From a virus, in the IMG/VR virus record IMGVR_UViG_3300042350_004528, positions 234,834-298,833 of that record: a stretch of 64,000 nt of DNA. One strand, given 5' to 3'. This document shows, piece after piece, positions 28,139 through 46,499 of this stretch (position 1 is its first letter; each line of letters begins with the position of its first letter). The notes under the pieces are model-generated. The model worked only from the letters and a program-made list of their open reading frames with translations. It was not told where the DNA came from and ran no database searches. The position numbers were made by a program, and so were the translations under genes.

Positions 28139-28209
28139 AGCTGGTAGTTGGAATCGAACCAATCTCTATAAGTTTTGCAGACTTATTGCACTCCATGTAC
28201 ATTACCAGC
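28139..28209 (-). tRNA. tRNA-Cys(GCA)
   Basis: Acceptor GCTGGTA/TACCAGC, anticodon loop CTGCAAA, T-loop TTCGATT. Last tRNA of array A; its codon TGT is in the array leader ORF. Confidence 0.93.
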
Positions 28210-28216
28210 ATATTAG

Positions 28217-28287
28217 CACGGGTGGAAGGATTCGAACCTCCATCGCTGGTTTTGGAGACCAGCATTCTACCATTGAAATACACCCGT
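28217..28287 (-). tRNA. tRNA-Trp(CCA)
   Basis: Acceptor ACGGGTG/CACCCGT, anticodon loop CTCCAAA, normal T-arm. Its TGG codon is in the leader ORF. Confidence 0.93.
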
Positions 28288-28292
28288 ATATT

Positions 28293-28363
28293 GTGGACAC
28301 AGTGGGAATCGAACCCAAACGATCTCCTTGCAAGGGAGTCGACCTGCCTTCGGTATCTGGCCC
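28293..28363 (-). tRNA. tRNA-Ala(TGC), degenerate acceptor stem
   Basis: Anticodon arm ACTCC-CTTGCAA-GGAGA and T-loop TTCGATT are tRNA-like, giving TGC (Ala). The 3' acceptor strand TGTGTCC finds no proper 5' partner (GGGCCAG pairs at about half the positions), and the D-arm is odd. It may be edited, repaired or dead. The leader peptide contains five Ala codons. Confidence 0.55.
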
Positions 28364-28369
28364 ATATGG

Positions 28370-28453
28370 CGGAGAGCGGAGTACTCGAAACTCATACCCG
28401 AAAGTACCACTCGCTTAGCAGGCGGTGACAGCACCCTGGCTGTGTCACTCTCC
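28370..28453 (-). tRNA. tRNA-Ser(GCT), CCA encoded
   Basis: Acceptor GGAGAG/CTCTCC, discriminator G and encoded CCA, class II variable arm, anticodon loop CTGCTAA. Reads AGT/AGC; the array leader uses AGT for its sensor Ser. Confidence 0.88.
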
Positions 28454-28459
28454 ATTTGT

Positions 28460-28533
28460 CGGGAAAGCTGGATTCGAACCAGCGATCTCTCGCGTCCAAG
28501 GCGAGCGAGGATGACCTGACTCCTCCATTTCCC
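28460..28533 (-). tRNA. tRNA-Pro(TGG), unusual loop
   Basis: Acceptor GGGAAA/TTTCCC, anticodon stem CTCGC/GCGAG, loop CTTGGAC giving TGG. Pro tRNAs normally have G37; this has A37, so identity is less certain than for the neighbouring Pro tRNA. Confidence 0.7.
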
Positions 28534-28539
28534 GTTTTG

Positions 28540-28611
28540 TAGGGTAGACAGGGTTCGAACCTGCGACCCCGTGCTCCCAAAGCACGTGCGCTACCAACTG
28601 CGCTACTACCC
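28540..28611 (-). tRNA. tRNA-Pro(TGG)
   Basis: Acceptor GGGTAG with pairing 3' CTACCC, anticodon stem CGTGC/GCACG, loop TTTGGGA. Four Pro codons are in the leader ORF. Confidence 0.9.
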
Positions 28612-28619
28612 TATGTTTG

Positions 28620-28705
28620 TCGGAGTGGAGGGATTCGAACCCCCTGAGTTTCCAATGTGCCAGATTTACAGTCTGGTGCCCATCCGCCGTCTGAGCAGCA
28701 CTCCG
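28620..28705 (-). tRNA. tRNA-Tyr(GTA)
   Basis: Acceptor CGGAGTG/CACTCCG, class II variable arm, anticodon loop CTGTAAA. First tRNA of array A after the attenuator; two TAT codons are in the leader. Confidence 0.93.
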
Positions 28706-28722
28706 AAATGATATAAAACAAA

Positions 28723-28749
28723 AAACCCTGAGATTTTGTCCCAGGGCTT
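28723..28749 (-). terminator. Rho-independent terminator inside attenuator A
   Basis: 11-bp stem with two G-U pairs, loop CAAAA, followed by T6; located between the leader ORF and tRNA-Tyr. Confidence 0.88.
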
Positions 28750-28811
28750 CTACTATTTTATATAATTAGTTTCCAAAAAAAATCGTTAACTAAAAGACAA
28801 TAGAAGCCCTG
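28723..28811 (-). promoter_or_regulatory. Attenuator of tRNA array A (Tyr-Pro-Pro-Ser-Ala-Trp-Cys)
   Basis: Three segments on the minus strand. A (28811-28801) CAGGGCTTCTA lies in codons 25-28 of the leader ORF. B (28752-28742) TAGAAGCCCTG is its perfect 11-bp complement. The terminator stem is AAGCCCTGGGA/TCTCAGGGTTT (28749-28739 with 28733-28723) plus a T run. B therefore pairs either with A (antiterminator) or with the terminator 3' arm. The sensor codons lie just upstream of A. Confidence 0.85.
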
Positions 28812-28884
28812 TTCCAGCTGGATATGCTGGAGCTGCTGGACAACTATACGGCCATGCCACGATATTTTTGTTCAAATTTTTCAT
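28786..28884 (-). CDS. Leader peptide of tRNA array A (32 aa)
   Basis: The ATG at 28884 opens a 32-codon frame. Residues 9-23 read VAWPYSCPAAPAYPA: Trp, Pro, Tyr, Ser, Cys and Ala are exactly the amino acids of the seven tRNAs downstream (Tyr, Pro, Pro, Ser, Ala, Trp, Cys). Ser is encoded by AGT, the codon read by the array's Ser(GCT). Codons 25-28 contain the antiterminator arm. The ORF lies between promoter (28924-28931) and terminator. By analogy with trp/his leaders it is a stalling sensor, not a functional protein. Confidence 0.85.
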   Translation of the reverse strand: MKNLNKNIVAWPYSCPAAPAYPAGTGLLLSFS

Positions 28885-28893
28885 TTTGTCTTT

Positions 28894-28902
28894 ATAAATA
28901 GT
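28894..28902 (-). promoter_or_regulatory. ACTATTTAT element before leader A
   Basis: Minus-strand ACTATTTATAAAG ten bases before the leader ATG; same string as before late genes, so late transcription of this array is possible. Confidence 0.4.
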
Positions 28903-28923
28903 GTGTTCTTTTAAAAAGTGATA

Positions 28924-28931
28924 CAAATATA
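28924..28931 (-). promoter_or_regulatory. Promoter of tRNA array A
   Basis: Minus-strand TATATTTG with CTTG 20 bp upstream, ahead of the leader ORF, so transcripts must pass the attenuator. Confidence 0.7.
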
Positions 28932-28986
28932 AGCACAGTTTTTTAAATAAGCAAGTTTTTTTAAAAATTAATCATAAATTTCTGTT

Positions 28987-29029
28987 ATATCGGTCATGTG
29001 ATACAAATATATCGGTCATGTGATACAAA
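28987..29029. repeat. Tandem 21-bp direct repeat
   Basis: Unit ATATCGGTCATGTGATACAA plus A occurs twice (28987-29007, 29009-29029). The first copy contributes a CAAATATA box. It lies between tRNA-His and the array A promoter; an operator is possible. Confidence 0.7.
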
Positions 29030-29054
29030 CCAGGCGCTTACCACTCACAATTGG

Positions 29055-29129
29055 GGCGAACGATGAGGTTCGAACTCACGACCTCCTGAACCACAATCAG
29101 GCGCTCTAACCAACTGAGCTACGTCCGCC
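29055..29129 (-). tRNA. tRNA-His(GTG)
   Basis: Acceptor GCGGACG/CGTTCGC, encoded G-1 opposite discriminator C73, anticodon loop TTGTGGT. It directly follows the Thg1-like gene. Because G-1 is encoded, Thg1 is not needed simply to add it. A CAT codon sits in the array C leader. Confidence 0.93.
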
Positions 29130-29139
29130 ATGTAATCCC

Positions 29140-29982
29140 CTACCTGTTGGTGGGGATTAAGTTATTTAAATATTCTCTATTTTGAGTAAAGATTGGTGTT
29201 TCGACATCCAATTCCCAAGCGCTTCTGGTGTAAACATCCTTTGGATCAATCACAACCGTATCACGATTGACTTCCGCATTGGCACTTTTACGAACAAACG
29301 TCTTTTCAATTTTTCTGATTATACCACCACGTTTTTCTCTTGGTGAGTAATCATTCCAATTTGTACCAGCCTGAAATATCAATTCTTGCATACCATCGGT
29401 CTTAACCCCATGTAATTGTTTTGGTGAGTATAAACTCTGAGCGACCGATGAAATTGAATTTCTGGTCGCATCTTGTTGTCTCCAGATGAAATAATTCTCA
29501 ACCTCAACTTTTTGTGGGATTTGAAATACCCTGGCATCAAACATAGCCAATTTAGGTTCGCTGGCGTATCTTTTATCCGTCACAGACTTTCTCTCGATAA
29601 CATGTAGATTCTTAATATAACGATCCATTCTCAATTTATTAAAGATGGCTGTTGCCATTGAGGCTGAAACGCTCGCCATTTTCTGTAAGTTATTATCGAA
29701 CCAAGCTTGTGTGCCCTCATCTTCAAAATCGGTGATCAAAATTGAAATCTCATCTGATTGCACATACGCAAACTTAGCACCCATAATGTTTTTACATAGA
29801 TATGCCGCTGTCTCATCCATATCATCAATCAAATCCAAATCAAATGGCCTTCTCAAACCTTTTGTATAGGTGTGAAAAGCCTTACCATCAATTCTGATAA
29901 TGGTGTAACCTCTTCTTGGTAATGAAATACGAGTTCTATCCTCATAGTTCGATTTCATTCTGTCTCCTAATGCGTCTTTCAT
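29140..29982 (-). CDS. Thg1/TLP-family 3'-5' RNA polymerase (tRNA-His guanylyltransferase-like)
   Basis: 280 residues. RISLPRRGYTIIRIDGKAFHTYTKGLRRPFD is the Thg1 N-terminal metal-binding motif (first Asp in RIDGK), AYVQSDEISILI supplies the second acidic site, and DARVFQIP, RQQDATRNSISSVAQ complete the family pattern. Thg1 adds G-1 to tRNA-His; bacterial and phage Thg1-like proteins repair 5'-truncated tRNAs by templated 3'-5' addition. The gene lies 10 bp from tRNA-His, which already encodes G-1, favouring a repair role. Confidence 0.9.
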   Translation of the reverse strand: MKDALGDRMKSNYEDRTRISLPRRGYTIIRIDGKAFHTYTKGLRRPFDLDLIDDMDETAAYLCKNIMGAKFAYVQSDEISILITDFEDEGTQAWFDNNLQKMASVSASMATAIFNKLRMDRYIKNLHVIERKSVTDKRYASEPKLAMFDARVFQIPQKVEVENYFIWRQQDATRNSISSVAQSLYSPKQLHGVKTDGMQELIFQAGTNWNDYSPREKRGGIIRKIEKTFVRKSANAEVNRDTVVIDPKDVYTRSAWELDVETPIFTQNREYLNNLIPTNR

Positions 29983-30413
29983 TTTATTTCTTGGTTAATT
30001 TTATATTCTTCTTCTGTTGCTATTCTAATTGGTACGAACAGCGCATACCCATCATCATCCTCAAAATGGTTACAATCGTCTTCATAAGTCATATTAAACT
30101 TAGTTCGATTGTAGATGAACTTGTTTTGTTTGACATCCCATTTTGCTATGGTGGCTCTCCTATGATCACCCGCATAAAACTGACCGTCAACCAAATTTTT
30201 TTTCTGAATAGCCCCAGCGCCAATTAATTTTGGTACATAAAAGTTATTCCACTCATCAGTTTCAACTCGTGGTAATTCGGGTATATCATTAACACCAGCG
30301 AATGGTTTTAATGTCTCCCAATATTCACGAATACGTTGTTCCCTTTCAGCTTTTTCAATTTCTCGTTTAGCTTTCAGTTCAGCGAATATCATATCTTTAT
30401 CAATCTGTTCCAT
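29979..30413 (-). CDS. Hypothetical protein in the tRNA/Thg1 operon
   Basis: 144 residues, with a highly charged helical N-terminus ([20 protein letters not shown]) then a beta-rich part ending [19 protein letters not shown] overlap with the Thg1-like gene, and 15 bp after tRNA-Ser. Not recognised. Confidence 0.55.
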
Positions 30414-30427
30414 AACAAATCATTTTG

Positions 30428-30512
30428 CGGAGAGGGAGGGATTCGAACCCCCGTTACCTTTCGGTAAAACGGTTTTCAAGACCGCCGCGATCAACCGCTC
30501 TGCCACCTCTCC
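30428..30512 (-). tRNA. tRNA-Ser(TGA)
   Basis: Acceptor GGAGAGG/CCTCTCC, class II variable arm, loop CTTGAAA. Reads TCN; the array C leader uses TCA and TCG for its Ser residues. Confidence 0.93.
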
Positions 30513-30521
30513 AATATTTCA

Positions 30522-30529
30522 CAAATATA
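30522..30529 (-). promoter_or_regulatory. Internal promoter before tRNA-Ser
   Basis: Minus-strand TATATTTG with CTTG 20 bp upstream, between tRNA-Ile and tRNA-Ser. It would drive Ser, the 29979 gene, Thg1 and tRNA-His without the attenuator. Confidence 0.6.
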
Positions 30530-30564
30530 AGAATAAAAATGTTAATTAACAAGTTTATTTTTGG

Positions 30565-30638
30565 TAGGCATGGTAGGACTCGAACCTACGACCTTCTGCG
30601 TATCAGACAGACGCTCTAACCAACTGAGCTACATGCCT
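30565..30638 (-). tRNA. tRNA-Ile(GAT), CCA encoded
   Basis: Acceptor AGGCATG/CATGCCT, loop CTGATAC, encoded CCA. Its ATT/ATC codons occur four times in the leader. Confidence 0.93.
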
Positions 30639-30645
30639 ATATTTG

Positions 30646-30719
30646 TACACCCTGATGGATTCGAACCACCGACCCCCTGCATGTAAGGCAGGTGCTCTAA
30701 CCAACTGAGCTAAGGATGC
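30646..30719 (-). tRNA. tRNA-Val(TAC)
   Basis: Acceptor GCATCCT/AGGGTGT with G-U pairs, loop CTTACAT. GTT and GTG are in the leader. Confidence 0.92.
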
Positions 30720-30725
30720 AAATTG

Positions 30726-30799
30726 TGACCCCATCGGGACTCGAACCCGAAACCTTCGCATTAAAAGTGCGAAGCTCTAACCAATTGAGCTACGAGGTC
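30726..30799 (-). tRNA. tRNA-Lys(TTT)
   Basis: Acceptor GACCTCG/TGGGGTC, loop CTTTTAA. First tRNA after attenuator C; AAA/AAG occur in the leader. Confidence 0.92.
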
Positions 30800-30811
30800 A
30801 TATAAAACAAA

Positions 30812-30836
30812 AAACCCAGGTGGTTTACCTGGGTTT
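30812..30836 (-). terminator. Rho-independent terminator inside attenuator C
   Basis: Stem AAACCCAGGT/ACCTGGGTTT, five-base loop, T run; between leader ORF and tRNA-Lys. Confidence 0.9.
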
Positions 30837-30891
30837 TCTTTTCTAACTCTATGTTCTTTAGTTTAACATAAATTAGGCAATACTAACCCAG
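30812..30891 (-). promoter_or_regulatory. Attenuator of tRNA array C (Lys-Val-Ile-Ser ... His)
   Basis: Antiterminator arm CTGGGTT (30891-30885) in codons 20-22 of the leader pairs perfectly over 7 bp with AACCCAG (30835-30829), the 5' arm of the terminator. Same order as the other three attenuators, with a shorter antiterminator. Confidence 0.75.
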
Positions 30892-30949
30892 CCCAGTTTT
30901 TCACCGAGATATGTTTAATTGACTTAATAATGTTAACCATTGTGTTCAT
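30863..30949 (-). CDS. Leader peptide of tRNA array C (28 aa)
   Basis: The ATG at 30949 opens a 28-codon frame. Residues 5-17 read VNIIKSIKHISVK. The operon encodes tRNAs Lys, Val, Ile, Ser and, after two protein genes, His: all five amino acids appear. Ser codons are TCA and TCG, matching Ser(TGA) rather than Ser(GCT). The antiterminator arm is in codons 20-22. Interpreted as an attenuator leader. Confidence 0.83.
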   Translation of the reverse strand: MNTMVNIIKSIKHISVKNWAGLVLPNLC

Positions 30950-30974
30950 TTTACTGATTTTTAAATATATAGTG

Positions 30975-30982
30975 CAAAAGTA
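30975..30982 (-). promoter_or_regulatory. Promoter of tRNA array C
   Basis: Minus-strand TACTTTTG with CTTG 20 bp upstream, 26 bp before the leader ATG. Confidence 0.7.
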
Positions 30983-31022
30983 AGCAAAGTTTTTTAAATA
31001 TGCAAGTTTTTTCAAAAAAAAA

Positions 31023-31415
31023 TTAAAAAATTTCTCTTTTACCTCTAGATACTGGCTCCAAACCTTTATTTCTGTCAATATAGATCCAGTCATATTCAAC
31101 CAAACCGAACTCATTGAGATGGTCTAATACGGTCTCAATACTATATTCTTTACATGAATAAATGTCAAATTGAACCAAACTTGGTGTATTTGCATCCCAA
31201 ATATGAATCGCAGCATGTGAGGTTGCAAGGGTTATTGTCCCAGTAATACCCTCATTACCTGGCTCGTCAACATAAATGGACGTTGGGCCAGCAACGACAA
31301 CCATACCAACTTTATTTACCAACGAGGTTAACCATGCGTCTAAAACCTCTTCCTTCTTTGGTGGATTTAAAACGTATCCACGGACGATTAAATGCAAGTG
31401 ATTTGGATTGAACAT
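31023..31415 (-). CDS. S-adenosylmethionine decarboxylase-like (SpeH-type) protein
   Basis: 130 residues. ITLATSHAAIHIWDANTPSLVQFDIYSCKEYSIETVLDHL aligns with the prokaryotic AdoMet decarboxylase core (ESH-x-x-x-HTxPE ... DxxxC), where self-cleavage before the Ser of the SH motif makes the pyruvoyl group. The Glu before Ser is Thr here. The enzyme would feed polyamine synthesis or remove SAM needed by restriction or methylation systems. Fold assignment is fair, activity unproven. Confidence 0.65.
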   Translation of the reverse strand: MFNPNHLHLIVRGYVLNPPKKEEVLDAWLTSLVNKVGMVVVAGPTSIYVDEPGNEGITGTITLATSHAAIHIWDANTPSLVQFDIYSCKEYSIETVLDHLNEFGLVEYDWIYIDRNKGLEPVSRGKREIF

Positions 31416-31464
31416 TTTCTATAATATTTACTGAAATAAATATTAAGAATTAGCGTTAAAAACA

Positions 31465-31492
31465 AAAAAACCGAATTATTTATTCGGTTTTT
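31465..31492 (-). terminator. Rho-independent terminator
   Basis: Stem AAACCGAAT/ATTCGGTTT with T run, overlapping the last codons of the 31480 gene. Confidence 0.75.
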
Positions 31493-31863
31493 GCGTTATT
31501 TTTGAATTTTGGTTTTAATGATTTTTTATCAATTTCCATTGTAAAATGGTATCGTAATAAATCATCATCCGTATAATCACCTGACGATGAAAAATTTAAA
31601 GACTTAATGTCAAAACTAAAACCACCGATGATTTCACCAGTGGGGTCAAGGTATTCTAATTCAATTCTCGATAAATTAAATAAATCGGTTGGAATAATAT
31701 GGTCATTAACTGTTTCATAACAAGATGTTTCAAACATTAATCTATCACCATCATTATATAGTTTATATTTTGAAAATAAGTAGGGGTGAATCTCAACACC
31801 AACCGTTTTAATTAACCAGCGATTTGTTTTTTTCGGTTCAATTGGGAATTTTTCGATATTCAT
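31480..31863 (-). CDS. Hypothetical protein
   Basis: 127 residues, beta-rich, unrecognised (WLIKTVGVEIHPYLFSKYKLY). Last gene of the 38-31 kb glycan operon, ended by a terminator. Confidence 0.5.
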   Translation of the reverse strand: MNIEKFPIEPKKTNRWLIKTVGVEIHPYLFSKYKLYNDGDRLMFETSCYETVNDHIIPTDLFNLSRIELEYLDPTGEIIGGFSFDIKSLNFSSSGDYTDDDLLRYHFTMEIDKKSLKPKFKNNAKTE

Positions 31864-31884
31864 GATTAAATTTTATTTTTTTTA

Positions 31885-33537
31885 TTATAAACTGTAAATT
31901 CCAAAAGGCGTAATTAAATAATCAATGATTTTATTTTTTAAATGAGTCATAGCTTCTTCGGGACGATTTACTATTGGCTCGTTATGAACATTAAATGAAG
32001 TATTTACCAAACAACCAAAACCTGTTTGATTTTTATAAGATTTCAAAATATGATAAAATAATGGATTTGAATTTTTAGTTACAATTTGAATACGTGCCGT
32101 TTTGTCCACAGGATGGACAACAGTTGGTAACTTATCTTTCCATTCATCTCGTGTTTCAAAACATAATGTCATAAACTCAGCGGCATATCTAGATTTATTC
32201 ACTATAAACAATCGATTAGCATCCTCATCTATTACTGCTGGCGCAAAAGGCATAAAATCGTTACGTTGTAACTTATCATTAATTAATTTATAAGTTTCGG
32301 GGTGAGTGGCGTCACAAATAATACTTCTATTACCTAAAGCTCTAGGGCCGTGTTCAAATTTGCCCTGAAATAATCCTAATATTTTTTTATTAAGTAATAA
32401 AACAGTAATAAAATCTATATTAAAAGGAATATAATTATATGTTCCTAAAATATTTTTTGCCGCTTCATCTACGTGTTCTTTATCATACTCATTCCCAAAA
32501 AACACATTATTTAATCTAAAAGGTTTAAAATCAGGATGAAGTTGTTTAATCGTTCCTAAAACACACCCTAAAGCTAACCCCTCATCACCCATTGGGGGGG
32601 CTATAAATACTTCATCCACCCATTCTAGTTCATTAATTAATTTATTCATTTTTACATTAGCAAAAATACCTCCAGCCATTGCCACTTTTTTAACATGAGG
32701 ATATTTTTGATGTAAATTATTAAGTATTTTTAAGATTTTTTCCTCAAATACTTTCTGTCCAGTATAAGCAATGTTTTTAATAGTTTCATGATTCTTCCAA
32801 TATCGAGAACCCATTGATTTAAAAAAGTTTTGATAAGTTTTTAAAAAAACATTTCCCCCAGCTAAATCACTATCATCAGAAAAAGGTGAAATTTCTGTTT
32901 GAAGACCATCAATTTTAATAACTTCGTTAAAAGCATCATATATTTCAGGTATTAGTCCTCCATGCCCAGCCATACCCACTACTTTACCTTCATCTTTTAA
33001 TCTTTTAAATCCTATTAATTCTGTAATAGCGGCATAAAATAGTCCTAAAGAATCTCTATTTAATAAAATCCCATCGATATACTCTAAATTACCATTTTTA
33101 CCTAAATAATACTTAGCTGAATGATTTTCTCCTGAACCATCAATAGCCACAACTAATGTATCTTCTTGAAAGTTAGATAAGTAATATGCTGTATTAATAT
33201 GAGAATCGTGGTGTTCGATTTTAATATATTTTTCTTTTTCTAAATTAAAATTAATGGTCATTTTAAAAATATCTCTGATTATTTCGTAATCGTAAAAACT
33301 AGTGAAATAATTTACTTTTCCTAAATCTACATCATGTTTAACTATTAATTCAGTAAGAGAAGCTAAAGGATATCTAAAATAATTATTTTCAAAATCTTTA
33401 TAAGGTTTAATCCTATTTAATCTTTCTTCCTCTAAGACTACTTTTAAATCGCCATTTTCAAAATAAGCTAACCCACAGCTGTGAGAACCACCAATAATTC
33501 CTAATATTCGATAGGAAGAATTTTCGTACAATTTCAT
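31885..33537 (-). CDS. Carbamoyltransferase, NodU/CmcH/TobZ family
   Basis: 550 residues, the usual length. ILGIIGGSHSCGLAYFENGDLKVVLEEERLNRIK, HHDSHINTAYYLSNF, LVVAIDGSGENHSAKYYLG, EGLALGC and KFEHGPRALGNRSIICD are family signatures of the Kae1-like and C-terminal domains. These enzymes place a carbamoyl group on a sugar or nucleoside hydroxyl via carbamoyl-AMP. Neighbours are glycosyl- and methyltransferase-like genes, so a modified sugar on the virion, host surface or DNA is the probable target. Confidence 0.9.
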   Translation of the reverse strand: MKLYENSSYRILGIIGGSHSCGLAYFENGDLKVVLEEERLNRIKPYKDFENNYFRYPLASLTELIVKHDVDLGKVNYFTSFYDYEIIRDIFKMTINFNLEKEKYIKIEHHDSHINTAYYLSNFQEDTLVVAIDGSGENHSAKYYLGKNGNLEYIDGILLNRDSLGLFYAAITELIGFKRLKDEGKVVGMAGHGGLIPEIYDAFNEVIKIDGLQTEISPFSDDSDLAGGNVFLKTYQNFFKSMGSRYWKNHETIKNIAYTGQKVFEEKILKILNNLHQKYPHVKKVAMAGGIFANVKMNKLINELEWVDEVFIAPPMGDEGLALGCVLGTIKQLHPDFKPFRLNNVFFGNEYDKEHVDEAAKNILGTYNYIPFNIDFITVLLLNKKILGLFQGKFEHGPRALGNRSIICDATHPETYKLINDKLQRNDFMPFAPAVIDEDANRLFIVNKSRYAAEFMTLCFETRDEWKDKLPTVVHPVDKTARIQIVTKNSNPLFYHILKSYKNQTGFGCLVNTSFNVHNEPIVNRPEEAMTHLKNKIIDYLITPFGIYSL

Positions 33538-33539
33538 AA

Positions 33540-38768: not shown

Positions 38769-38776
38769 AATTTCTG

Positions 38777-39152
38777 TGGAGTCGGAGGGATTCGAACCCT
38801 CGTCTCGTTTAGCCATTCAATAATTCTCATTCACATGCTTAGTTCATTTTTCTAAACAAACAAAATATTTGTCTTCACTAACCCAGAAGTTCAATAAAAC
38901 TGGAATACCTTTTTTGGAGTTCCCACCTCCCACCTGGCATCTAAGGGTTTTTGCAGTTTTAACTGACAGTTGTTGGCTTACGCCAATTCGTAGTCTGCAA
39001 ACTCAACTGGCTGACCGTTCAACACGATGTTGCCTTCAGCGTCAATGTAGCTTTCGCCATCTGAAATTGTGTATAGGTTATTTAAGTGTTTCCGATACTA
39101 ACACCACATGCAAATTAAAGAACGAATCTACCGATCGATTCCAGTCGACCCC
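38777..39152 (-). ncRNA. ssrA: tmRNA (ssrA) with unusual long tag
   Basis: 376 nt. 5' end GGGGTCGACTGGAATCGATC and 3' end with GAACTAAGCATGTG, T-arm GAGGG-TTCGAAT-CCCTC and acceptor GGGGTCG/CGACTCC (one G-U) are tmRNA hallmarks; CCA is not fully encoded. The tag frame (39058-38978) starts GESY, as in Bacteroidetes tags, but then continues: GESYIDAEGNIVLNG...EFADYELA-stop, 26 residues, instead of about 10 ending ALAA. Co-transcribed with tRNA-Leu. The phage also has smpB and clpP. Confidence 0.93.
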
Positions 39153-39183
39153 ATATGTATAAATACCGTAATATTTTACTTTG

Positions 39184-39267
39184 TACCGAGGATGGGAGTC
39201 GAACCCACACGGCCTTTTGGGCCAAGGGATTTTAAGTCCCTCATGTCTACCATTCCATCACCTCGGC
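39184..39267 (-). tRNA. tRNA-Leu(TAA), beside tmRNA
   Basis: Acceptor GCCGAGG/CCTCGGT, class II, loop CTTAAAA. Transcribed with tmRNA from 39287, without a leader peptide. Confidence 0.92.
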
Positions 39268-39286: not shown

Positions 39287-39294
39287 CAATATTA
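39287..39294 (-). promoter_or_regulatory. Promoter of tRNA-Leu/tmRNA
   Basis: Minus-strand TAATATTG (one mismatch to TAnnTTTG) with TTTG 19 bp upstream. Confidence 0.5.
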
Positions 39295-39318
39295 CGAAAT
39301 TATTTTTAAAAAACAAAA

Positions 39319-39891: not shown

Positions 39892-39895
39892 AAAA

Positions 39896-39903
39896 CAAAT
39901 ATA
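39896..39903 (-). promoter_or_regulatory. Promoter, leaderless configuration (gene at 39891)
   Basis: Minus-strand TATATTTG, then TTTT, then ATG. Confidence 0.65.
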
Positions 39904-39928
39904 AACAATTTTTTTTAAAAAACAAATG

Positions 39929-39999
39929 TTGTCGGGGGTGGATTCGAACCACCGTAAACTCCTTCAAAGGGAGTTGTCCTGCCGCTAGACGACCCGACA
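39929..39999 (-). tRNA. tRNA-Gln(TTG)
   Basis: Acceptor TGTCGGG/CCCGACA, loop CTTTGAA. CAA/CAG occur four times in the array E leader. Confidence 0.92.
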
Positions 40000-40005
40000 A
40001 TTTAG

Positions 40006-40091
40006 TACCTGGAGAGGGATTCGAACCCTCACGCCCCTTTCAGAGCACTGGATTTTAAGTCCAGCGTGACTACCAGTTCCACCATCCAGGC
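40006..40091 (-). tRNA. tRNA-Leu(TAA)
   Basis: Acceptor GCCTGGA/TCCAGGT, class II, loop CTTAAAA. TTA codons dominate the array E leader. Confidence 0.92.
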
Positions 40092-40096
40092 ATTTG

Positions 40097-40177
40097 TACC
40101 CTCGGTCGGATTCGAACCGACACGCCTCGCGACACTGGTTTCTAAGACCAGCGGGTCTACCGTTCCCCCACGAGGGC
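40097..40177 (-). tRNA. tRNA-Leu(TAG)
   Basis: Acceptor GCCCTCG/CGAGGGT, class II, loop CTTAGAA. Reads CTN; CTA and CTC are in the leader. Confidence 0.92.
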
Positions 40178-40182
40178 ATTTG

Positions 40183-40255
40183 TGGCTTTAACAGGATTCG
40201 AACCCATACTTTATCGTCCGTAGCGATAAGTGCTATCCAGTTACACCATAAAGCC
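40183..40255 (-). tRNA. tRNA-Arg(ACG)
   Basis: Acceptor GGCTTTA/TAAAGCC, loop CTACGGA. Reads CGN; CGC is in the leader. Confidence 0.92.
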
Positions 40256-40261
40256 ATAAAA

Positions 40262-40295
40262 TAAAAAACCCTGAGTTGCTTAGCACCCCAGGGTT
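40262..40295 (-). terminator. Rho-independent terminator inside attenuator E
   Basis: Stem AACCCTGGG/CTCAGGGTT, structured loop, T6; between leader ORF and tRNA-Arg. Confidence 0.85.
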
Positions 40296-40347
40296 GATTT
40301 TTCATAGTTAAAATCTTTGTTTACATATGAACATAGCTTACCCCAGG
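40262..40347 (-). promoter_or_regulatory. Attenuator of tRNA array E (Arg-Leu-Leu-Gln)
   Basis: Arm CCTGGGGT (40347-40340) in codons 19-21 of the leader can pair over 8 bp (two wobble) with ACCCTGGG (40294-40287), the terminator 5' arm. Weaker pairing than in arrays A and F but the same layout. Confidence 0.7.
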
Positions 40348-40401
40348 CTCTTTTGTCAAGAGTTGTAATTGTAACTGGCGTTGTAAGCTTAGTGTTCTCA
40401 T
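40321..40401 (-). CDS. Leader peptide of tRNA array E (26 aa)
   Basis: The ATG at 40401 opens 26 codons beginning MRTLSLQRQLQLQLL. Eleven of residues 2-15 are Leu, Gln or Arg, or twelve with Arg2; the array encodes exactly Arg, Leu, Leu and Gln. Codons include CTA (Leu-TAG), TTA (Leu-TAA), CAA (Gln-TTG) and CGC (Arg-ACG). Attenuator leader by position and content. Confidence 0.85.
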   Translation of the reverse strand: MRTLSLQRQLQLQLLTKEPGVSYVHM

Positions 40402-40530
40402 GTCTATATAAATATGTTCGTTTTTAAAAAAGTGCAACTATCGGACTAACCTTTACAAACTTTCCGAAGAAAGCTTTTGGGGTTGAACCAAATTTAACCA
40501 GAGTTAGTTGCTGAATTTAGTCCCAATTGC
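40402..40530 (-). promoter_or_regulatory. Structured 5' leader with possible pseudoknot
   Basis: Between promoter and leader ORF, the RNA holds GGACTAA ... GCAACTA ... TTAGTCC ... TAGTTGC, two perfect 7-bp pairings in crossing order, plus a CTTTC-TTCG-GAAAG hairpin. Resembles a ligand- or protein-binding leader; unidentified. Confidence 0.5.
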
Positions 40531-40534
40531 GATA

Positions 40535-40542
40535 CAAAGATA
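40535..40542 (-). promoter_or_regulatory. Promoter of tRNA array E
   Basis: Minus-strand TATCTTTG with CTTG 20 bp upstream. Confidence 0.7.
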
Positions 40543-40580
40543 AGAAATGTTTTTTTAATAAACAAGTATTTTTGAAAATT

Positions 40581-41621: not shown

Positions 41622-41648
41622 TCTTTTTCGTGTTTAATAAAAAATAAT

Positions 41649-42257: not shown

Positions 42258-42288
42258 ATTTTTAGTGATTTTTTTTAATTAAAAATTA

Positions 42289-42320
42289 TAAAACCCCCAA
42301 GCTATTAACCTGGGGGTTTT
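42289..42320 (-). terminator. Rho-independent terminator
   Basis: Stem AAAACCCCCA/TGGGGGTTTT-type with A/T flanks after the 42325 gene. Confidence 0.85.
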
Positions 42321-42324
42321 GAAC

Positions 42325-42675
42325 TTAGATACCGTAACGTTCCATCAATCGGCCAACGGTTCTTGCCGATACACCCAAGGCTTCTCCTGTTCTTGTTTTA
42401 ACATAATCGTTTTGTTTCAAGATACGAGAAAAAGTTTTCTTGTTGATAGACGAGATGTATTGTGCACGATTGTACATATTTGTTGGCACAACACGTTCAA
42501 TAACGACTTCACCCTTTCGGTTTTTGGTTACATTATATTCGTAACCAGAGTTGTTATTGGTAATTGCGTTAACGGTGTTAACGACTTCGTTGCGATTGGC
42601 TCCAGAGAGTTTCATCGACTCACCAGCGACCATCGACTTGATGGCGGCTGACAAGGTTTTGTTGGTGTTAGACAT
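42325..42675 (-). CDS. Putative HTH regulator
   Basis: 116 residues. The C-terminus TRTGEALGVSARTVGRLMERYGI is a Fis/NtrC-type helix-turn-helix (helix, turn, recognition helix SARTVGRLM). N-terminal part is polar and unrecognised. Lies just downstream of array F, single gene, ended by a terminator. Possible phage transcription factor. Confidence 0.65.
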   Translation of the reverse strand: MSNTNKTLSAAIKSMVAGESMKLSGANRNEVVNTVNAITNNNSGYEYNVTKNRKGEVVIERVVPTNMYNRAQYISSINKKTFSRILKQNDYVKTRTGEALGVSARTVGRLMERYGI

Positions 42676-42742
42676 AAATAATGATTTTATAAGACAATAA
42701 TAAGAAAGAAAGTTTGAAATACCAAATATTGGTGAAAAAAAG

Positions 42743-42816
42743 TTGGCGGGATGGGACTTGAACCCATGACCTTGACCTTATAAGAGTCCTGCGCTAACCA
42801 ACTGCGCCACCCGCCA
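42743..42816 (-). tRNA. tRNA-Ile(TAT)
   Basis: Acceptor TGGCGGG/CCCGCCA, loop CTTATAA. A TAT anticodon is rare in bacteria, which usually use modified CAT for ATA; the array F leader contains ATA. Confidence 0.9.
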
Positions 42817-42826
42817 GTCGAATTGG

Positions 42827-42898
42827 AGCGGTAAGACAGAATCGAACTGTCGTCCTCAGCTTGGAAGGCTGATGTAATAGCCACTATACGACTACCGC
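42827..42898 (-). tRNA. tRNA-Gly(TCC)
   Basis: Acceptor GCGGTAG/TTACCGC, loop CTTCCAA. GGA is in the leader. Confidence 0.92.
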
Positions 42899-42911
42899 AA
42901 GATGCCTCATT

Positions 42912-43041
42912 CTGGGGTTTGATTGAGGTCTAGTTACATCGGTTTCTTTCGCTGTTTCAAGAACCTGCCGCACTTCTGCTGGTAAAACCCGTCAACACTA
43001 CTCGGCGGAGATGTGTCGCTCTCCGTTACTCCGACCCCCAG
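42912..43041 (-). ncRNA. Structured spacer in array F
   Basis: No ORF or tRNA. Closed by CTGGGG/CCCCAG, with CCTCA/TGAGG and GGAGA/TCTCC hairpins inside. 43042-43175 continues with CGGTTA/TAACCG and GCTCAT/ATGAGC hairpins. Confidence 0.35.
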
Positions 43042-43175
43042 CATTTTAACTATAAAGGCTCATTACCACCCTATGAGCGGATGATTGCTCTCCAGTACAG
43101 TTTTCGGTTACCATCTGGGTATTAACCGTGATCCTTTAGTGAGATCCAAACACTCTGAGTACCCCTTACTCGTTG

Positions 43176-43248
43176 AGCGGTAGACAGGATTCGAACCTGC
43201 GACCCTCACCTTGGCAAGGTGATGCTCTACCAACTGAGCTACTACCGC
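43176..43248 (-). tRNA. tRNA-Gly(GCC)
   Basis: Acceptor GCGGTAG/CTACCGC, loop TTGCCAA. GGC is in the leader. Confidence 0.93.
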
Positions 43249-43252
43249 TTAA

Positions 43253-43360
43253 AAGACAGCCCACAACGTCCACATTATACCGTTGGTGGGGAATGACGAC
43301 CAGTCAAGTTGTGGTTCTTACTTTATGTCGCCTGCAACAGGTGCCACCCACTTCTGTCTT
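43253..43360 (-). ncRNA. Structured spacer in array F
   Basis: Closed by AAGACAG/CTGTCTT (7 bp) with nested CCACAAC/GTTGTGG (7 bp) and a CCTG/CAGG hairpin. Confidence 0.45.
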
Positions 43361-43363
43361 AGC

Positions 43364-43452
43364 ACTCGACATGGGAATCGAACCCACCACCCTTAGCGCA
43401 CCACTGTTATGGTGATTCGAACACCGCTACTAAGGGCTGACCCCAATCGAGT
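43364..43452 (-). ncRNA. Divergent tRNA-like element
   Basis: 89 nt. Acceptor-like ACTCGAT/GTCGAGT (7 bp) and T-arm GTGGG-TTCGATT-CCCAT are normal. Between them is a CCCTTAG/CTAAGGG stem enclosing a second T-arm-like hairpin (GGTG-TTCGAAT-CACC). No ordinary D or anticodon arm; could be read as Ser(CGA) only by force. Confidence 0.5.
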
Positions 43453-43455
43453 AAG

Positions 43456-43486
43456 TTGGGGAACCTATTTACAAGCTTTTGGTTCC
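43456..43486. ncRNA. Strong hairpin in array F spacer
   Basis: Perfect 8-bp GGGGAACC/GGTTCCCC stem. The rest of 43487-43668 shows small hairpins only (TCCC/GGGA near 43633-43650). Confidence 0.45.
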
Positions 43487-43668
43487 CCGATTGATCAAGT
43501 TATTTAATTATTTTAACCTCAAATAAGGCATTCACATCGCCAATAAAGGGGATCGGCTTTAAGGTTTAACCGCCATAACTCTCAGATACGCTCGTCATGT
43601 GACTCTTTCTCCGTTTATTTTAAGATGCACGGATCCCTCTCTGATGGGAGTACAAAACATCTGCTTGG

Positions 43669-43743
43669 TTGCGGGAACGGGATTCGAACCCGTGTAATTC
43701 GGCTTATGAGACCGAGCTGGAACCAACTCCAGTCCACCCCGCA
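43669..43743 (-). tRNA. tRNA-Met(CAT), elongator or Ile2 type
   Basis: Acceptor TGCGGGG/TCCCGCA fully paired at 1-72, anticodon stem TCGGT/GCCGA, loop CTCATAA, CCA encoded. Confidence 0.9.
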
Positions 43744-44286
43744 GTAATGAAAGGCTCTGAATCGTCCCTGCGCCATTCTCAGGAGAGCCTTTCGGTTTTA
43801 AATAGATTCGGCGATCGATTATTCCCACTGATATACCTAAGATTCGTTAGATCATAGTAACCATCCACAATGGGCCTATACTCTTACACTCCGTCCGTAT
43901 TTACTCACCTAATCAAATGCGTCATAGGTATTTCAGATACAGCGTTCAGTGCTACCCTCAGGACTTCTTCACCCTACCCCCATAGTTACGTGGCAGATCT
44001 CGCTCGGAAGAAAAGAGCGTGTATCGTAGAATTGTCCAGTATTTCTACGACTTGTGGATTACAACACGACCAATTAAGGCCCCTTACCCTCTCAATCCAT
44101 AATGAGGGACTCGGTCATACTCGTTCCCAACGTATCCGACTGAACTTCCCCATGTCGGTAAACCCCGTTTATTAGAGGTTATACGAATTTCACTTCTTGT
44201 GTGACCTTCCCCATAGCCTTGGAGCCTTCTAGCCAGGTTCACACACCATAACGGATGAGTACGTCCGTTAATCGTGGGGTCTTTTG
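43744..44286 (-). ncRNA. Long non-coding structured spacer in array F
   Basis: 540 bp with no credible ORF and higher GC than flanking genes. Perfect hairpins include GAAAGGCTCT/AGAGCCTTTC (43749-43793), CGTAGAA/TTCTACG, CCCTC/GAGGG, GTGTGA/TCACAC and TAACGGA/TCCGTTA (44249-44270). Function unknown. Confidence 0.45.
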
Positions 44287-44377
44287 CTGATTAAAGGGAA
44301 TTGAACCCAATCCTCCAGCCCTGTCCACTTCTATCCTGAAGCAACTAGGGCCAGTGTGCCCATTACACTATAACCAA
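44287..44377 (-). ncRNA. Divergent tRNA-like element
   Basis: 91 nt. TTGGTTA/TAATCAG acceptor-like stem (two G-U), D-arm GTGT-AATGG-GCAC, T-loop TTCAATT. The anticodon position is GCCCT/AGGGC with a 24-nt loop instead of 7. The adjoining 44378-44426 carries a second fragment with a GAGAG-GTTCGAAA-CTCTC T-arm-like hairpin. Confidence 0.45.
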
Positions 44378-44426
44378 TCGAGAGTTTCGAACCTCTCAGA
44401 CTCAAGTTAATTACTCTTGAGTTTTG

Positions 44427-44498
44427 TAGCGGGGGTGGGAATCGAACCCACGACCTCCAGGTTATGAGCCTGGCGAGCTACCTCTGCTCTACCCCGCA
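44427..44498 (-). tRNA. tRNA-fMet(CAT), initiator-like
   Basis: T1-T72 is unpaired above GCGGGG/CCCCGC, the initiator hallmark; D-arm AGAGCAGAGGTAGCTCG and loop CTCATAA resemble initiators. Anticodon stem CCAGG/CCTGG has two of the three usual G-C pairs. Confidence 0.8.
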
Positions 44499-44504
44499 AT
44501 GTTG

Positions 44505-44576
44505 TACTCCCTACGGGAATCGAACCCGTCTTTTCAGGATGAAAACCTGATGTCCTAACCGATAGACGAAAGGAGC
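44505..44576 (-). tRNA. tRNA-Glu(TTC)
   Basis: Acceptor GCTCCTT/AGGGAGT, loop TTTTCAT. GAG is in the leader. Confidence 0.93.
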
Positions 44577-44579
44577 GTA

Positions 44580-44785
44580 AATTGATGATTCGACCACATT
44601 TCTTACCAGAGCGGAACTAAGGGGTCTATTGGTACCGTACCCTCATGCACTCGATTGGGATTGCAGCCCCGTGAGTCTCCCGATGCGCCAGATTGTCTTT
44701 CCTATACTTTCGCTAACCTATCTGTTATTGGGTTCTGGCAGTGTCCCAGTTAGCATACTCCCATAGTACTTTTTCCTCATCAATT
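44580..44785 (-). ncRNA. Structured spacer in array F
   Basis: Closed by a perfect 9-bp AATTGATGA/TCATCAATT; inside are GCTAAC/GTTAGC and a decayed T-arm-like GGG-CTGCAAT-CCC. 44786-44953 continues with a GTCTTATG/CATAAGAC hairpin and nothing coding. Confidence 0.45.
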
Positions 44786-44953
44786 CTTTTTTTTTGCCTT
44801 TACCTTTCAAAGACTAAGTAGGTTTAGTTGCGGACTTTCACGTCTTATGCGTCCATAAGACTCCTTCCTCTGAGTGCTTCTCTTTTTACAGTCTTTAAAC
44901 TATCAAGGTACGTTATCTCAGTTTTCAACACAAAACCACTGTGTTAGCAATCG

Positions 44954-45027
44954 CGATCCCGATAGGATTCGAACCTATGACCTACTGCTTAGAAGGCAGT
45001 TGCTCTATCCAGCTGAGCTACGGGATC
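44954..45027 (-). tRNA. tRNA-Arg(TCT)
   Basis: Acceptor GATCCCG/CGGGATC, loop CTTCTAA. All three Arg codons of the array F leader are AGA. Confidence 0.93.
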
Positions 45028-45036
45028 GTAAATTTC

Positions 45037-45097
45037 GGGTTGATCTTTTTAGTCGGATTTACAAGTCTGATTTTTTAAGATTTGCTGAACTCAACCC
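45037..45097 (-). ncRNA. Structured spacer in array F
   Basis: Closed by GGGTTGA/TCAACCC. Contains TTCAGCAAATC, which recurs in the insert of the tRNA-like element at 45328. Confidence 0.35.
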
Positions 45098-45105
45098 CAA
45101 TAAGT

Positions 45106-45248
45106 AAATAAAACACAGGATGCGTTTATACGTGCTCTAACCAACTGAGCTATCGACCTCATACGAAGCCGAGTGGGACTCGAACCCACGACCCCGAGGT
45201 TGACATCCTAAAGTTTAATTTGCGGAATGCATCCTCTTTGTTTTATTT
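45106..45248 (-). tRNA. Circularly permuted tRNA-Asp(GTC)-like gene
   Basis: The 3' half (45209-45166) precedes the 5' half (45159-45131), separated by CGTATG. Joined, they give a complete cloverleaf: acceptor AGGTCGA/TCGGCTT (7 pairs, two G-U), D-stem GCTC/GAGC, anticodon stem CGAGG/CCTCG with loop ATGTCAA, T-arm GTGGG-TTCGAGT-CCCAC. The break lies in the 5' strand of the anticodon stem. Flanks pair as AAATAAAACA/TGTTTTATTT and AGGATGC/GCATCCT, a 17-bp clamp. Maturation would need cutting and ligation. Confidence 0.7.
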
Positions 45249-45249
45249 G

Positions 45250-45321
45250 CGGTCTATGCGGGAATCGAACCCGCCTCACCGCCGTGACAGGGCGGCATCC
45301 TAGCCGATGAACGAATAGACC
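45250..45321 (-). tRNA. tRNA-Asp(GTC)
   Basis: Acceptor GGTCTAT/ATAGACC, anticodon stem CCGCC/GGCGG, loop CTGTCAC. GAC is in the leader. Confidence 0.93.
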
Positions 45322-45327
45322 GTTTAG

Positions 45328-45449
45328 AGCCCAGAGCTGGATTCGAACCAGCGCCTTTTTTTTCCATAAAAAATTGTTAGATAGTGATTTGCTGAAATCA
45401 TCCACACTGGATGACTCTTTTTTTAATGCTACCGCTACACCATCTGGGC
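45328..45449 (-). ncRNA. Interrupted tRNA-like element
   Basis: 122 nt. Acceptor GCCCAGA/TCTGGGC and T-arm GCTGG-TTCGAAT-CCAGC are perfect and a D-arm is visible. In the anticodon region lies a ~75-nt A/T-rich insert with a CATCCA/TGGATG hairpin. No normal anticodon can be read; intron-like, decoy or dead tRNA. Confidence 0.5.
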
Positions 45450-45453
45450 TTTG

Positions 45454-45527
45454 CTCCCCCGTCAGGGCTCGAACCTGAGACCTACTGATTAACAGTCAGT
45501 TGCTCTAACCAGCTGAGCTACAGAGGA
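45454..45527 (-). tRNA. tRNA-Asn(GTT)
   Basis: Acceptor TCCTCTG/CGGGGGA with G-U pairs, loop CTGTTAA. Two AAT codons are in the leader. Confidence 0.93.
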
Positions 45528-45529
45528 AT

Positions 45530-45620
45530 ATTTGATGGTGTCACAACTATATACCATCAGCTACGGAACCCTTCTGTTAATAAGTAAGTAGGAGATTTAA
45601 AAATCTCGTCCGTATCAAAT
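45530..45620 (-). ncRNA. Structured spacer in array F
   Basis: Closed by ATTTGAT/ATCAAAT with inner TACGGA/TCCGTA, GATGGT/ACCATC and GAGATTT/AAATCTC. 45621-45710 adds TTGTC/GACAA and CAAAG/CTTTG hairpins. Confidence 0.45.
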
Positions 45621-45710
45621 CCACGCCATTGGTTACGTTGTCTCACGACAAGAGGCTTTACCAAGGCAAAGTTTTAATTTTTTCACCAATATGTCAAAGA
45701 ACAATCTTTG

Positions 45711-45783
45711 AGCCACATGACGGGATCGAACCGCCGACCTACTGATTACAAATCAGTTGCTCTACCAGCTGAGCTAATGTGGC
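45711..45783 (-). tRNA. tRNA-Thr(TGT)
   Basis: Acceptor GCCACAT/ATGTGGC, loop TTTGTAA. ACA and ACG are in the leader. Confidence 0.93.
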
Positions 45784-45788
45784 ATCTG

Positions 45789-45861
45789 TGGTGCGGGGAG
45801 GAATCGAACCTCCGACACAGGGATTTTCAGTCCCTTGCTCTACCAACTGAGCTACCGCACC
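45789..45861 (-). tRNA. tRNA-Phe(GAA)
   Basis: Acceptor GGTGCGG/CCGCACC, loop CTGAAAA. TTC and TTT are in the leader. Confidence 0.93.
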
Positions 45862-45867
45862 AAGTAA

Positions 45868-45999
45868 AGATAATGGTTGGATTCCCGTTACACCCAACTC
45901 TGTACTGCTTCTTGAGTTTTACAAGCGCTTGGCAGAGGGAGCTGATTTCTTCGGCCCAAACTCGCTTGTCGACAGCTTATTTGGAGAAACCCATTATCT
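45868..45999 (-). ncRNA. Structured spacer in array F
   Basis: Closed by a perfect 9-bp AGATAATGG/CCATTATCT; inner ACAAGCG/CGCTTGT. No ORF. Confidence 0.5.
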
Positions 46000-46001
46000 T
46001 C

Positions 46002-46100
46002 GTAGCGTATGTGGGATTCGAACCTAAACCAACTATTCATGCTTCGTTGGCCACCTGTACACGGGCTCATGACTGCGCCGTGCTCTCCAAGAGTACGCTA
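46002..46100 (-). ncRNA. Divergent tRNA-like element, first in array F
   Basis: 99 nt. Acceptor TAGCGTA/TACGCTA is perfect and T-loop TTCGAAT is present, but the T-stem is poor. CTCT-TGG-AGAG sits at the D position, CACGG/CCGTG has a 13-nt loop at the anticodon position, and there is an extra CCAAC/GTTGG arm. Confidence 0.5.
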
Positions 46101-46194
46101 TGTATTTTAAAAGTTACAATTCATCGGAATGTGTTTGTTTTCCATTAAAAGTAGAGTTTGTATTATTTGCCGAATACATTCCCGAATTGTGGTA

Positions 46195-46202
46195 CAAAAG
46201 TA
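46195..46202 (-). promoter_or_regulatory. Array F promoter, proximal of a tandem pair
   Basis: Minus-strand TACTTTTG with TTTG 20 bp upstream. Shares the flanks AATTGTGGTACAAA and GTAAGAAC with the box at 46295, a promoter duplication. Lies downstream of the attenuator. Confidence 0.65.
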
Positions 46203-46294
46203 AGAACAAAATTTTTAACCTGCAAATACTTTTGAAACTTTTTTCATTTTTTTTCAAAGAACTTATTTTAACGCTTGCTCTCGCAATTGTGGTA

Positions 46295-46302
46295 CAAATG
46301 TA
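46295..46302 (-). promoter_or_regulatory. Array F promoter, distal of a tandem pair
   Basis: Minus-strand TACATTTG with TTTG 20 bp upstream; downstream of the attenuator, so it bypasses it. Confidence 0.65.
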
Positions 46303-46339
46303 AGAACGAAACTTCAAACTCGCAAACTTTCAACAAAAA

Positions 46340-46366
46340 AAAACCCGAACTTTTGGTTCGGGCTTT
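46340..46366 (-). terminator. Rho-independent terminator inside attenuator F
   Basis: Stem AAAGCCCGAAC/GTTCGGGTTTT (one G-U) followed by T run. Confidence 0.9.
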
Positions 46367-46411
46367 CTACTATGGTTTACACAATGAATAATTACACCAA
46401 TAGAAAGCCCG
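46340..46411 (-). promoter_or_regulatory. Attenuator upstream of tRNA array F
   Basis: Arm CGGGCTTTCTA (46411-46401), in codons 20-23 of the leader, is perfectly complementary over 11 bp to TAGAAAGCCCG (46369-46359), the terminator 5' arm. Same geometry as attenuator A with a different sequence, so the pairings are conserved rather than the bases. Confidence 0.85.
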
Positions 46412-46469
46412 TAGATGAGTCCTCGCCTCTTCCAAAGAATCTATTCGTTGTATTTATCACTCTTTTCAT
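46392..46469 (-). CDS. Leader peptide of tRNA array F (25 aa)
   Basis: The ATG at 46469 opens 25 codons beginning MKRVINTTNRFFGRGED. Residues 5-17 contain only Ile, Asn, Thr, Arg, Phe, Gly, Glu and Asp, all encoded as tRNAs in array F. Codons match anticodons: AGA for Arg(TCT), ATA for Ile(TAT), GGA and GGC for Gly(TCC) and Gly(GCC). Codons 20-23 hold the antiterminator arm. Confidence 0.85.
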   Translation of the reverse strand: MKRVINTTNRFFGRGEDSSTGFLLV

Positions 46470-46491
46470 TGAATGTTTTATAAGTTTTGTA

Positions 46492-46499
46492 TAAATATA
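46492..46499 (-). promoter_or_regulatory. Promoter of leader F
   Basis: Minus-strand TATATTTA (one mismatch) with CTTG 19 bp upstream, 23 bp before the leader ATG. Confidence 0.5.

Follow-up and report, generated by a model that had tools for sequence, protein, structure and literature searches.

Amino-acid operons (trp, his, leu, thr and ilv) and pheST are regulated by attenuators built from a short open reading frame (ORF) with regulatory codons, an antiterminator arm in or near that ORF and an intrinsic terminator before the first gene, with stalling predicted to give read-through. Here we describe leaders of the same build upstream of four transfer RNA (tRNA) operons of a phage. They lie in the last 64,000 nucleotides (nt) of the 298,833-bp virus record IMGVR_UViG_3300042350_004528 (bases 234,834–298,833; this whole stretch is called the window), which holds 28 of the record's 28 tRNA matches. 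Judging from sequence, each operon is very probably under a ribosome-mediated transcription attenuator, the sensor codons of which are those of its own tRNAs. The phage-borne leaders would control the tRNAs that decode their sensor codons, rather than biosynthetic enzymes or synthetases; they often list many different codons, and a single genome carries several leaders that differ in specificity. By analogy, the best reading is that the known logic of trp/his attenuation has been re-used for tRNA genes that would sense their own tRNAs.

Other known systems share parts of this design. T-box riboswitches also place termination of transcription under the control of tRNA, but by direct tRNA binding and not through translation of an ORF; no T-box family is present among the Rfam matches in the window (E ≤ 0.5). 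Upstream ORFs (uORFs) of whiB7 (PMC10287673) and E. coli topAI (PMC12121999) sense ribosome stalling, and induction of whiB7 after tRNA cleavage by VapC5 is a precedent for a uORF reading tRNA cleavage. However, these uORFs sense general stalling rather than cognate tRNA supply (PMC10287673 for whiB7) and drive resistance or toxin–antitoxin genes instead of the tRNA that is lacking. Phage tRNAs are known to replace host tRNAs cleaved by anticodon nucleases (PMC10264068, PMC11555353 and the PARIS/T5 work), but the phage in PMC11555353 uses a strong promoter, and neither PMC10264068 nor PMC11555353 mentions a leader or attenuator. The initial annotation of the window knew of no tRNA operon regulated by its own tRNAs in this way. 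Full-text searches and a reading of key papers on phage tRNAs, jumbo phages and huge phages and of one genome-wide attenuator survey likewise gave no leader-peptide control of tRNA genes, although this absence is not proof, as coverage was mostly without subscription journals and preprints.

Codon match between leaders and tRNA arrays

Direct reading of the minus strand of the window reveals four units of promoter, short ORF, terminator and tRNAs (Table 1). Codons were scored from the start codon up to the antiterminator arm and were counted as matched when a tRNA encoded in that operon reads them under strict wobble (ATG was not scored as read by Ile-TAT); the expected match was taken from phage codon usage. 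The four leaders match their own array at 0.52–0.78 of codons and the other three arrays at 0–0.28, and each exceeds its expectation (Table 1). The true assignment is the best of all 24 pairings. The initial annotation had described these ORFs as consisting mainly of own-array codons, which is accurate except for the first 5–7 codons (MKNLNKNI etc.), which are largely non-sensor. ARAGORN was run at relaxed settings, as the default misses the divergent Ala(TGC) and Ser(GCT) of array 1; with Ser(GCT) found at relaxed settings only, the AGT codon of leader 1 has its cognate tRNA, as had been claimed.

The match holds across genomes. In 25 leaders of 8 representative genomes, 339 of 539 codons match their own array, compared with 144.9 expected (Fisher combined p 2e-70). 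Within every genome tested, the true leader–array pairing is the sole best permutation: 1/24 in the window, 1/6 in each of G001, G016 and G044, 1/2 in G030, 1/720 in LR745206.1, 1/5040 in LR756502.1 and 1/120 in LR756504.1, with an exact within-genome permutation product over six clades of 7e-9. The match is confined to the reading frame of the leader (0.60 in frame 0, 0.19 in +1 and 0.17 in +2; 0.24 expected) and to the part of the ORF upstream of the antiterminator arm, termed arm A: it is 0.68 from codon 7 to arm A (0.25 expected) and 0.19 in and after A (0.22 expected). Sensor codons therefore end ahead of the arm, as originally proposed. Of the 160 amino acids represented in the arrays, 151 also occur in the corresponding leader (103 expected; 16/16 in G016 and 13/13 in G030), Met being the usual omission.

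The match extends to isoacceptors (Cochran–Mantel–Haenszel z 5.09 overall). Arrays with only Ile-TAT have leaders with ATA at 9:4, whereas those with only Ile-GAT have 3:22. For Ser, TCN is found at 16:8 before Ser-TGA and 1:4 before Ser-GCT; for Arg, CGN is found at 6:3 before Arg-ACG and 1:11 before Arg-TCT. The claim that Arg codons follow the isoacceptor is upheld by this split-box test, but within the window it is imperfect, as leader 3, upstream of Arg(ACG), also contains one AGA.

Leaders in related phages and beyond

Relatives were sought using the GMP-reductase-like protein adjoining arrays 3 and 4, which yielded 61 viral loci; their contigs were searched for tRNAs and the regions retrieved, giving many arrays. 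Thg1 was dropped as a route to relatives, as near Thg1 relatives lie mostly outside tRNA arrays. A leader finder based on position, terminator and complementarity of arm A to arm B, the partner of A overlapping the 5′ arm of the terminator, and using no amino-acid information, returned 64 distinct leaders from 24 genomes; window leader 4 was added by hand, its first tRNA being too distant from the terminator for the finder. Leader, terminator and pairing are thus conserved ahead of tRNA arrays in related large phages of Bacteroidetes. Examples are KNLNNILPLISRPSIRRS upstream of Ser(TGA)-Arg(TCT)-Pro-Ile-Met-Leu, KNCSTHNINRTISQNKGYQGMAFWAVKE upstream of 16 different tRNA species with 16/16 amino acids included, KQFKHIQSFIMCSKWADERDIC with 22 of 22 codons matched, and RNSVININITSGTTISRNGNGIFCSIFGRNITH upstream of Cys-Ile-Ser-Asn-Phe-Gly-Thr-Arg with 27 of 33 matched.

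The public huge phages LR745206.1, LR756502.1 and LR756504.1 (635–642 kb) carry 5–7 leaders per genome. Among huge-phage leaders are the mono-specific, poly-Gln MTTSFQQQQQQQINRTD of LR756502.1, upstream of four tRNA-Gln genes, and KTKKQQYKQYQPQYKTV upstream of Tyr-Gln-Lys. The huge-phage paper places its five genomes of more than 634 kb in the Mahaphage clade, with Bacteroidetes as hosts (PMC7162821). In three huge-phage loci (L195, L198 and L204), leader–terminator units also lie between successive tRNA groups, forming a tandem attenuator series. Prevotella phages Lak-A2 and Lak-B8 (L212 and L215) have a common conserved leader, M(R/K)QFNNIYKNNVDIYADSFNWYEQ..., and terminator before their Trp-led main tRNA array; the codon match itself is not significant there, the array being too broad.

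The same rule gave no convincing leader in Sphingomonas phage PAU, where the first tRNA lies about 90 nt after gene 1, in the crAss-like cr108_1, or in the other tRNA-rich phages G041, G043, G049, G050, G056, G058 and G059; the ORFs that it picked in G041 lack codon match. Outside phages, 1 of 20 sampled tRNA stretches of the isolate genome of Xanthocytophaga flavus YF14B1 has two tandem leaders, MKTQLLFSLYLFLLSAQDGVN and MSTSYTFFLLQLLALLLWKAREPYV. These Leu/Phe-rich leader–terminator units precede four Leu tRNAs and one Phe-like tRNA, and the neighbourhood is that of an ordinary chromosome (L274 410–1193; L275 ~14900–15700). The mechanism may thus extend beyond phages, and attenuated tRNA genes may also exist in bacterial chromosomes.

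Switch architecture, proposed mechanism and rival explanations

In each leader, an intrinsic terminator lies between the ORF and the first gene, as in an attenuator, with spacings of about 24 nt from stop codon to terminator start and about 29 nt from terminator to first tRNA. In 83% of 63 leaders, no more than 18 nt separate the end of arm A from the stop codon (median 12 nt), and 52 of the 63 have a Bacteroidetes-type −7 box, TAnnTTTG, within 120 nt upstream (4.4 expected). Complementarity between an ORF segment and the 5′ arm of the terminator reaches at least the 95% shuffle level in 21 of 38 leaders chosen blind to pairing. Arm sequences are wholly different among phage groups (GGGCTTTCTA, GATCGAAG, AGGTCC, TCCCGAGG, GTTCGG, GTCAGAC and others), yet complementarity is kept, and two-sided changes occur between close relatives: CTGGGTT:AACCCAG in window leader 2 is CTGGGC:GCCCAG in L081, and AGATTCGA:TCGAATCT is replaced by AGGTTCGA:TCGAACTT. 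Such changes with complementarity preserved are the arm covariance that the initial annotation had called for. Together with conservation and the shuffled-pairing tests, they support its core proposal of a codon-matched leader-peptide attenuator for each tRNA operon.

From the order of sensor codons, arm A near the end of the ORF and a B–C terminator, we infer ribosome-mediated attenuation, including stalling, polarity, regulated read-through and feedback. RNA polymerase would start at the Bacteroidetes-type promoter and transcribe a leader ORF of ~17–45 codons. When all charged sensor tRNAs, from the pooled host and phage supply, are ample, the ribosome would reach the stop codon and mask arm A; arm B would then pair with arm C, the terminator would form and no tRNAs would be made. 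When any one sensor tRNA is scarce, the ribosome would stall at its codon upstream of A, leaving A free to pair with B, and the array would be transcribed. Leaders with many codons would act as an OR gate across array members. As the array encodes the very tRNAs that decode the sensor codons, a tRNA should be induced when it runs short, and the product would relieve its own stall, a negative feedback fitting each tRNA group to demand.

Several observations weigh against this attenuator. Taken one by one, window leaders 2 and 3 have weak A:B pairing (7–8 nt; shuffle p 0.14 and 0.10), in contrast to the strong arms of leader 1 (15 nt) and leader 4 (10 nt), so that of the layout first claimed for all four arrays, promoter, short ORF, terminator and tRNAs stand throughout and the antiterminator arm is short in two. 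The whole-leader minimum free energy (MFE) fold is the antiterminator for leader 1 only and the terminator for leaders 2–4, in which switching would need to be kinetic, like that of classical attenuators; MFE folding was therefore dropped as evidence for the switch. A consistent 1:2 protector hairpin, which in an attenuator gives termination without translation, was not seen in whole-leader folds, in which no test was aimed at protectors; without such a hairpin, blocked initiation would likewise turn the operon on. Ribosomes would halt at these codons under amino-acid starvation too, a shortage that extra tRNA would not relieve. Finally, a few leaders match poorly, such as the second of G016 (10/28 compared with 7.5 expected). 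ORFs of non-matching composition were rejected as a control for A:B pairing, many being overlapping frames of the same leaders.

A likely use of the attenuator would be to make up for host tRNAs that anticodon nucleases have cut or that disappear in host shut-off. Anticodon nucleases are attractive as a trigger because the window encodes Thg1, a CCA-adding enzyme and an RNA ligase, and they fit these tRNA-repair genes, but host defence as trigger is speculative, and sequence alone does not distinguish it from codon demand or low host tRNA, which would act on the same switch. We consider it an even call that the leaders form a widespread counter-defence, in which each array, governed by a codon-list sensor of its own that acts as an OR gate over up to 16 amino acids, stays silent until a tRNA from its group is destroyed, and which at least one bacterial chromosome would use as well. 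It is a strong possibility, just short of an even chance, that the same attenuator instead answers ordinary supply and demand, be it phage codon demand, host shut-off or amino-acid limitation. Slow decoding from any cause would stall the same codons, the arrays are broad and go beyond tRNAs known as nuclease targets, and classical leaders respond to aminoacyl-tRNA level (PMC1183508); yet the tRNA-repair genes suggest tRNA damage, and codon choice at the level of isoacceptors better fits loss of specific tRNAs than of amino acids, although selective isoacceptor charging could also yield it.

The direction of the switch is predicted from sequence, and the opposite polarity, in which efficient leader translation favours read-through and tRNAs are expressed feed-forward when plentiful, is conceivable but very improbable: A lies where a ribosome at the stop codon would mask it in most leaders, A competes with the terminator for B so that a masked A frees the terminator, and sensor codons end upstream of A. 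Short ORFs are common, but it is barely credible that these encode functional peptides or are chance ORFs with a composition set by phage codon usage, a reading that already fails the frame and permutation tests, given the match of 339 codons against 145, its absence from the other two frames and from same-rule ORFs of phage G041, and the convergence of unrelated sequences in each clade on array composition.

If codon-matched attenuation is correct, these would be the first tRNA operons, within the literature found, that are controlled by their own tRNAs by way of translation, and a class of tRNA genes regulated through decoding of their own codons: the phage would make a tRNA group only upon decoding failure by that group. 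It has long been asked why phages carry tRNAs, and such regulation would indicate a purpose. Being specific for given codons, the leaders could also be used as they stand to sense tRNA cleavage when anticodon-nuclease defences are sought and tested, and they make predictions for uncultivated huge phages (the >630-kb clade and Lak) that are testable in metatranscriptomes.

Features of the window

Protein genes also lie within two of the window operons, including Thg1 ahead of tRNA-His, which corrects the earlier description. The window tRNA-repair set comprises an RNA ligase, a fusion of a CCA-adding enzyme with a HAD_SAK_1 domain, and Thg1 adjoining its substrate gene, tRNA-His. Operon 3 ends in a transfer-messenger RNA (tmRNA), so the Leu-Gln-Arg leader would control a ribosome-rescue RNA too.

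Table 1 Positions of the four predicted attenuated tRNA operons and associated genes in the window
Feature	Position	Strand	Evidence or remark
RNA ligase	13268–14650		
CCA-adding enzyme fused to HAD_SAK_1 domain	23979–26063		
tRNA array 1: Tyr, Pro, Pro, Ser(GCT), Ala(TGC), Trp, Cys	28138–28705	−	ARAGORN
Intrinsic terminator 1	28721–28751	−	
Leader 1 arm B, pairs with A, overlaps 5′ arm of terminator	28742–28756	−	
Leader 1 MKNLNKNIVAWPYSCPAAPAYPAGTGLLLSFS	28786–28884	−	12/23 own-array codons; 3.1 expected, p 1e-5
Leader 1 arm A, 15 nt, within ORF	28797–28811	−	0/300 shuffles equally good
Operon 1 promoter, TTG ... TATATTTG, Bacteroidetes type	28924–28954	−	sequence
tRNA-His, end of operon 2	29052–29128	−	His codon present in leader 2
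tRNA-His guanylyltransferase (Thg1), within operon 2	29140–29982	−	phrog_4717, E 3e-85
tRNA array 2: Lys, Val, Ile(GAT), Ser(TGA)	30427–30799	−	
Intrinsic terminator 2	30809–30839	−	
Leader 2 arm B AACCCAG	30829–30835	−	
Leader 2 MNTMVNIIKSIKHISVKNWAGLVLPNLC	30863–30949	−	11/18 own-array codons; 3.6 expected, p 2e-4
Leader 2 arm A CTGGGTT	30885–30891	−	compensatory change in L081 (CTGGGC with GCCCAG)
Operon 2 promoter, TTG ... TACTTTTG	30975–31005	−	
tmRNA, end of operon 3	38774–39152	−	Rfam RF00023, 78.8 bits
tRNA-Leu(TAA), distal in operon 3	39183–39267	−	
tRNA array 3: Arg(ACG), Leu(TAG), Leu(TAA), Gln(TTG)	39928–40255	−	
Intrinsic terminator 3	40267–40295	−	
Leader 3 arm B ACCCTGGG	40287–40294	−	
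Leader 3 MRTLSLQRQLQLQLLTKEPGVSYVHM	40321–40401	−	10/17 own-array codons; 1.7 expected, p 1e-6
Leader 3 arm A CCTGGGGT	40340–40347	−	
Operon 3 promoter, TTG ... TATCTTTG	40535–40565	−	sequence
tRNA array 4: Phe, Thr, Asn, Asp, Arg(TCT), Glu, Met, Met, Gly, Gly, Ile(TAT), other structured RNAs interspersed	42742–45861	−	
Intrinsic terminator 4	46338–46368	−	
Leader 4 arm B TAGAAAGCCC	46360–46369	−	
Leader 4 MKRVINTTNRFFGRGEDSSTGFLLV	46392–46469	−	14/18 own-array codons; 7.6 expected, p 3e-3; kept as MITITNTTNRFFGRGEDSSKGFLLS in L082
Leader 4 arm A GGGCTTTCTA	46401–46410	−	
Operon 4 promoter, TTG ... TATATTTA	46492–46521	−	

The long 5′ untranslated region of leader 3 (40405–40535, minus strand) contains a T-arm-like GGTTCAACCCC and complementary blocks, found likewise upstream of leader 3 in L081. 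Array 4 includes a YrlA-like Y RNA (45099–45221, minus strand; 45.9 bits, under the family cut-off), for which an earlier reading as a permuted tRNA was dropped. A DUF2828/DUF7788 protein (62447–63847, minus strand; phrog_850, RNA-binding), 17 kb from the Y RNA, is possibly a Ro-type partner. Several other tRNA-like or structured RNAs of array 4 (42900–46100, minus strand), such as those at 45327–45449 and 46002–46099, are poorly classified by every finder.

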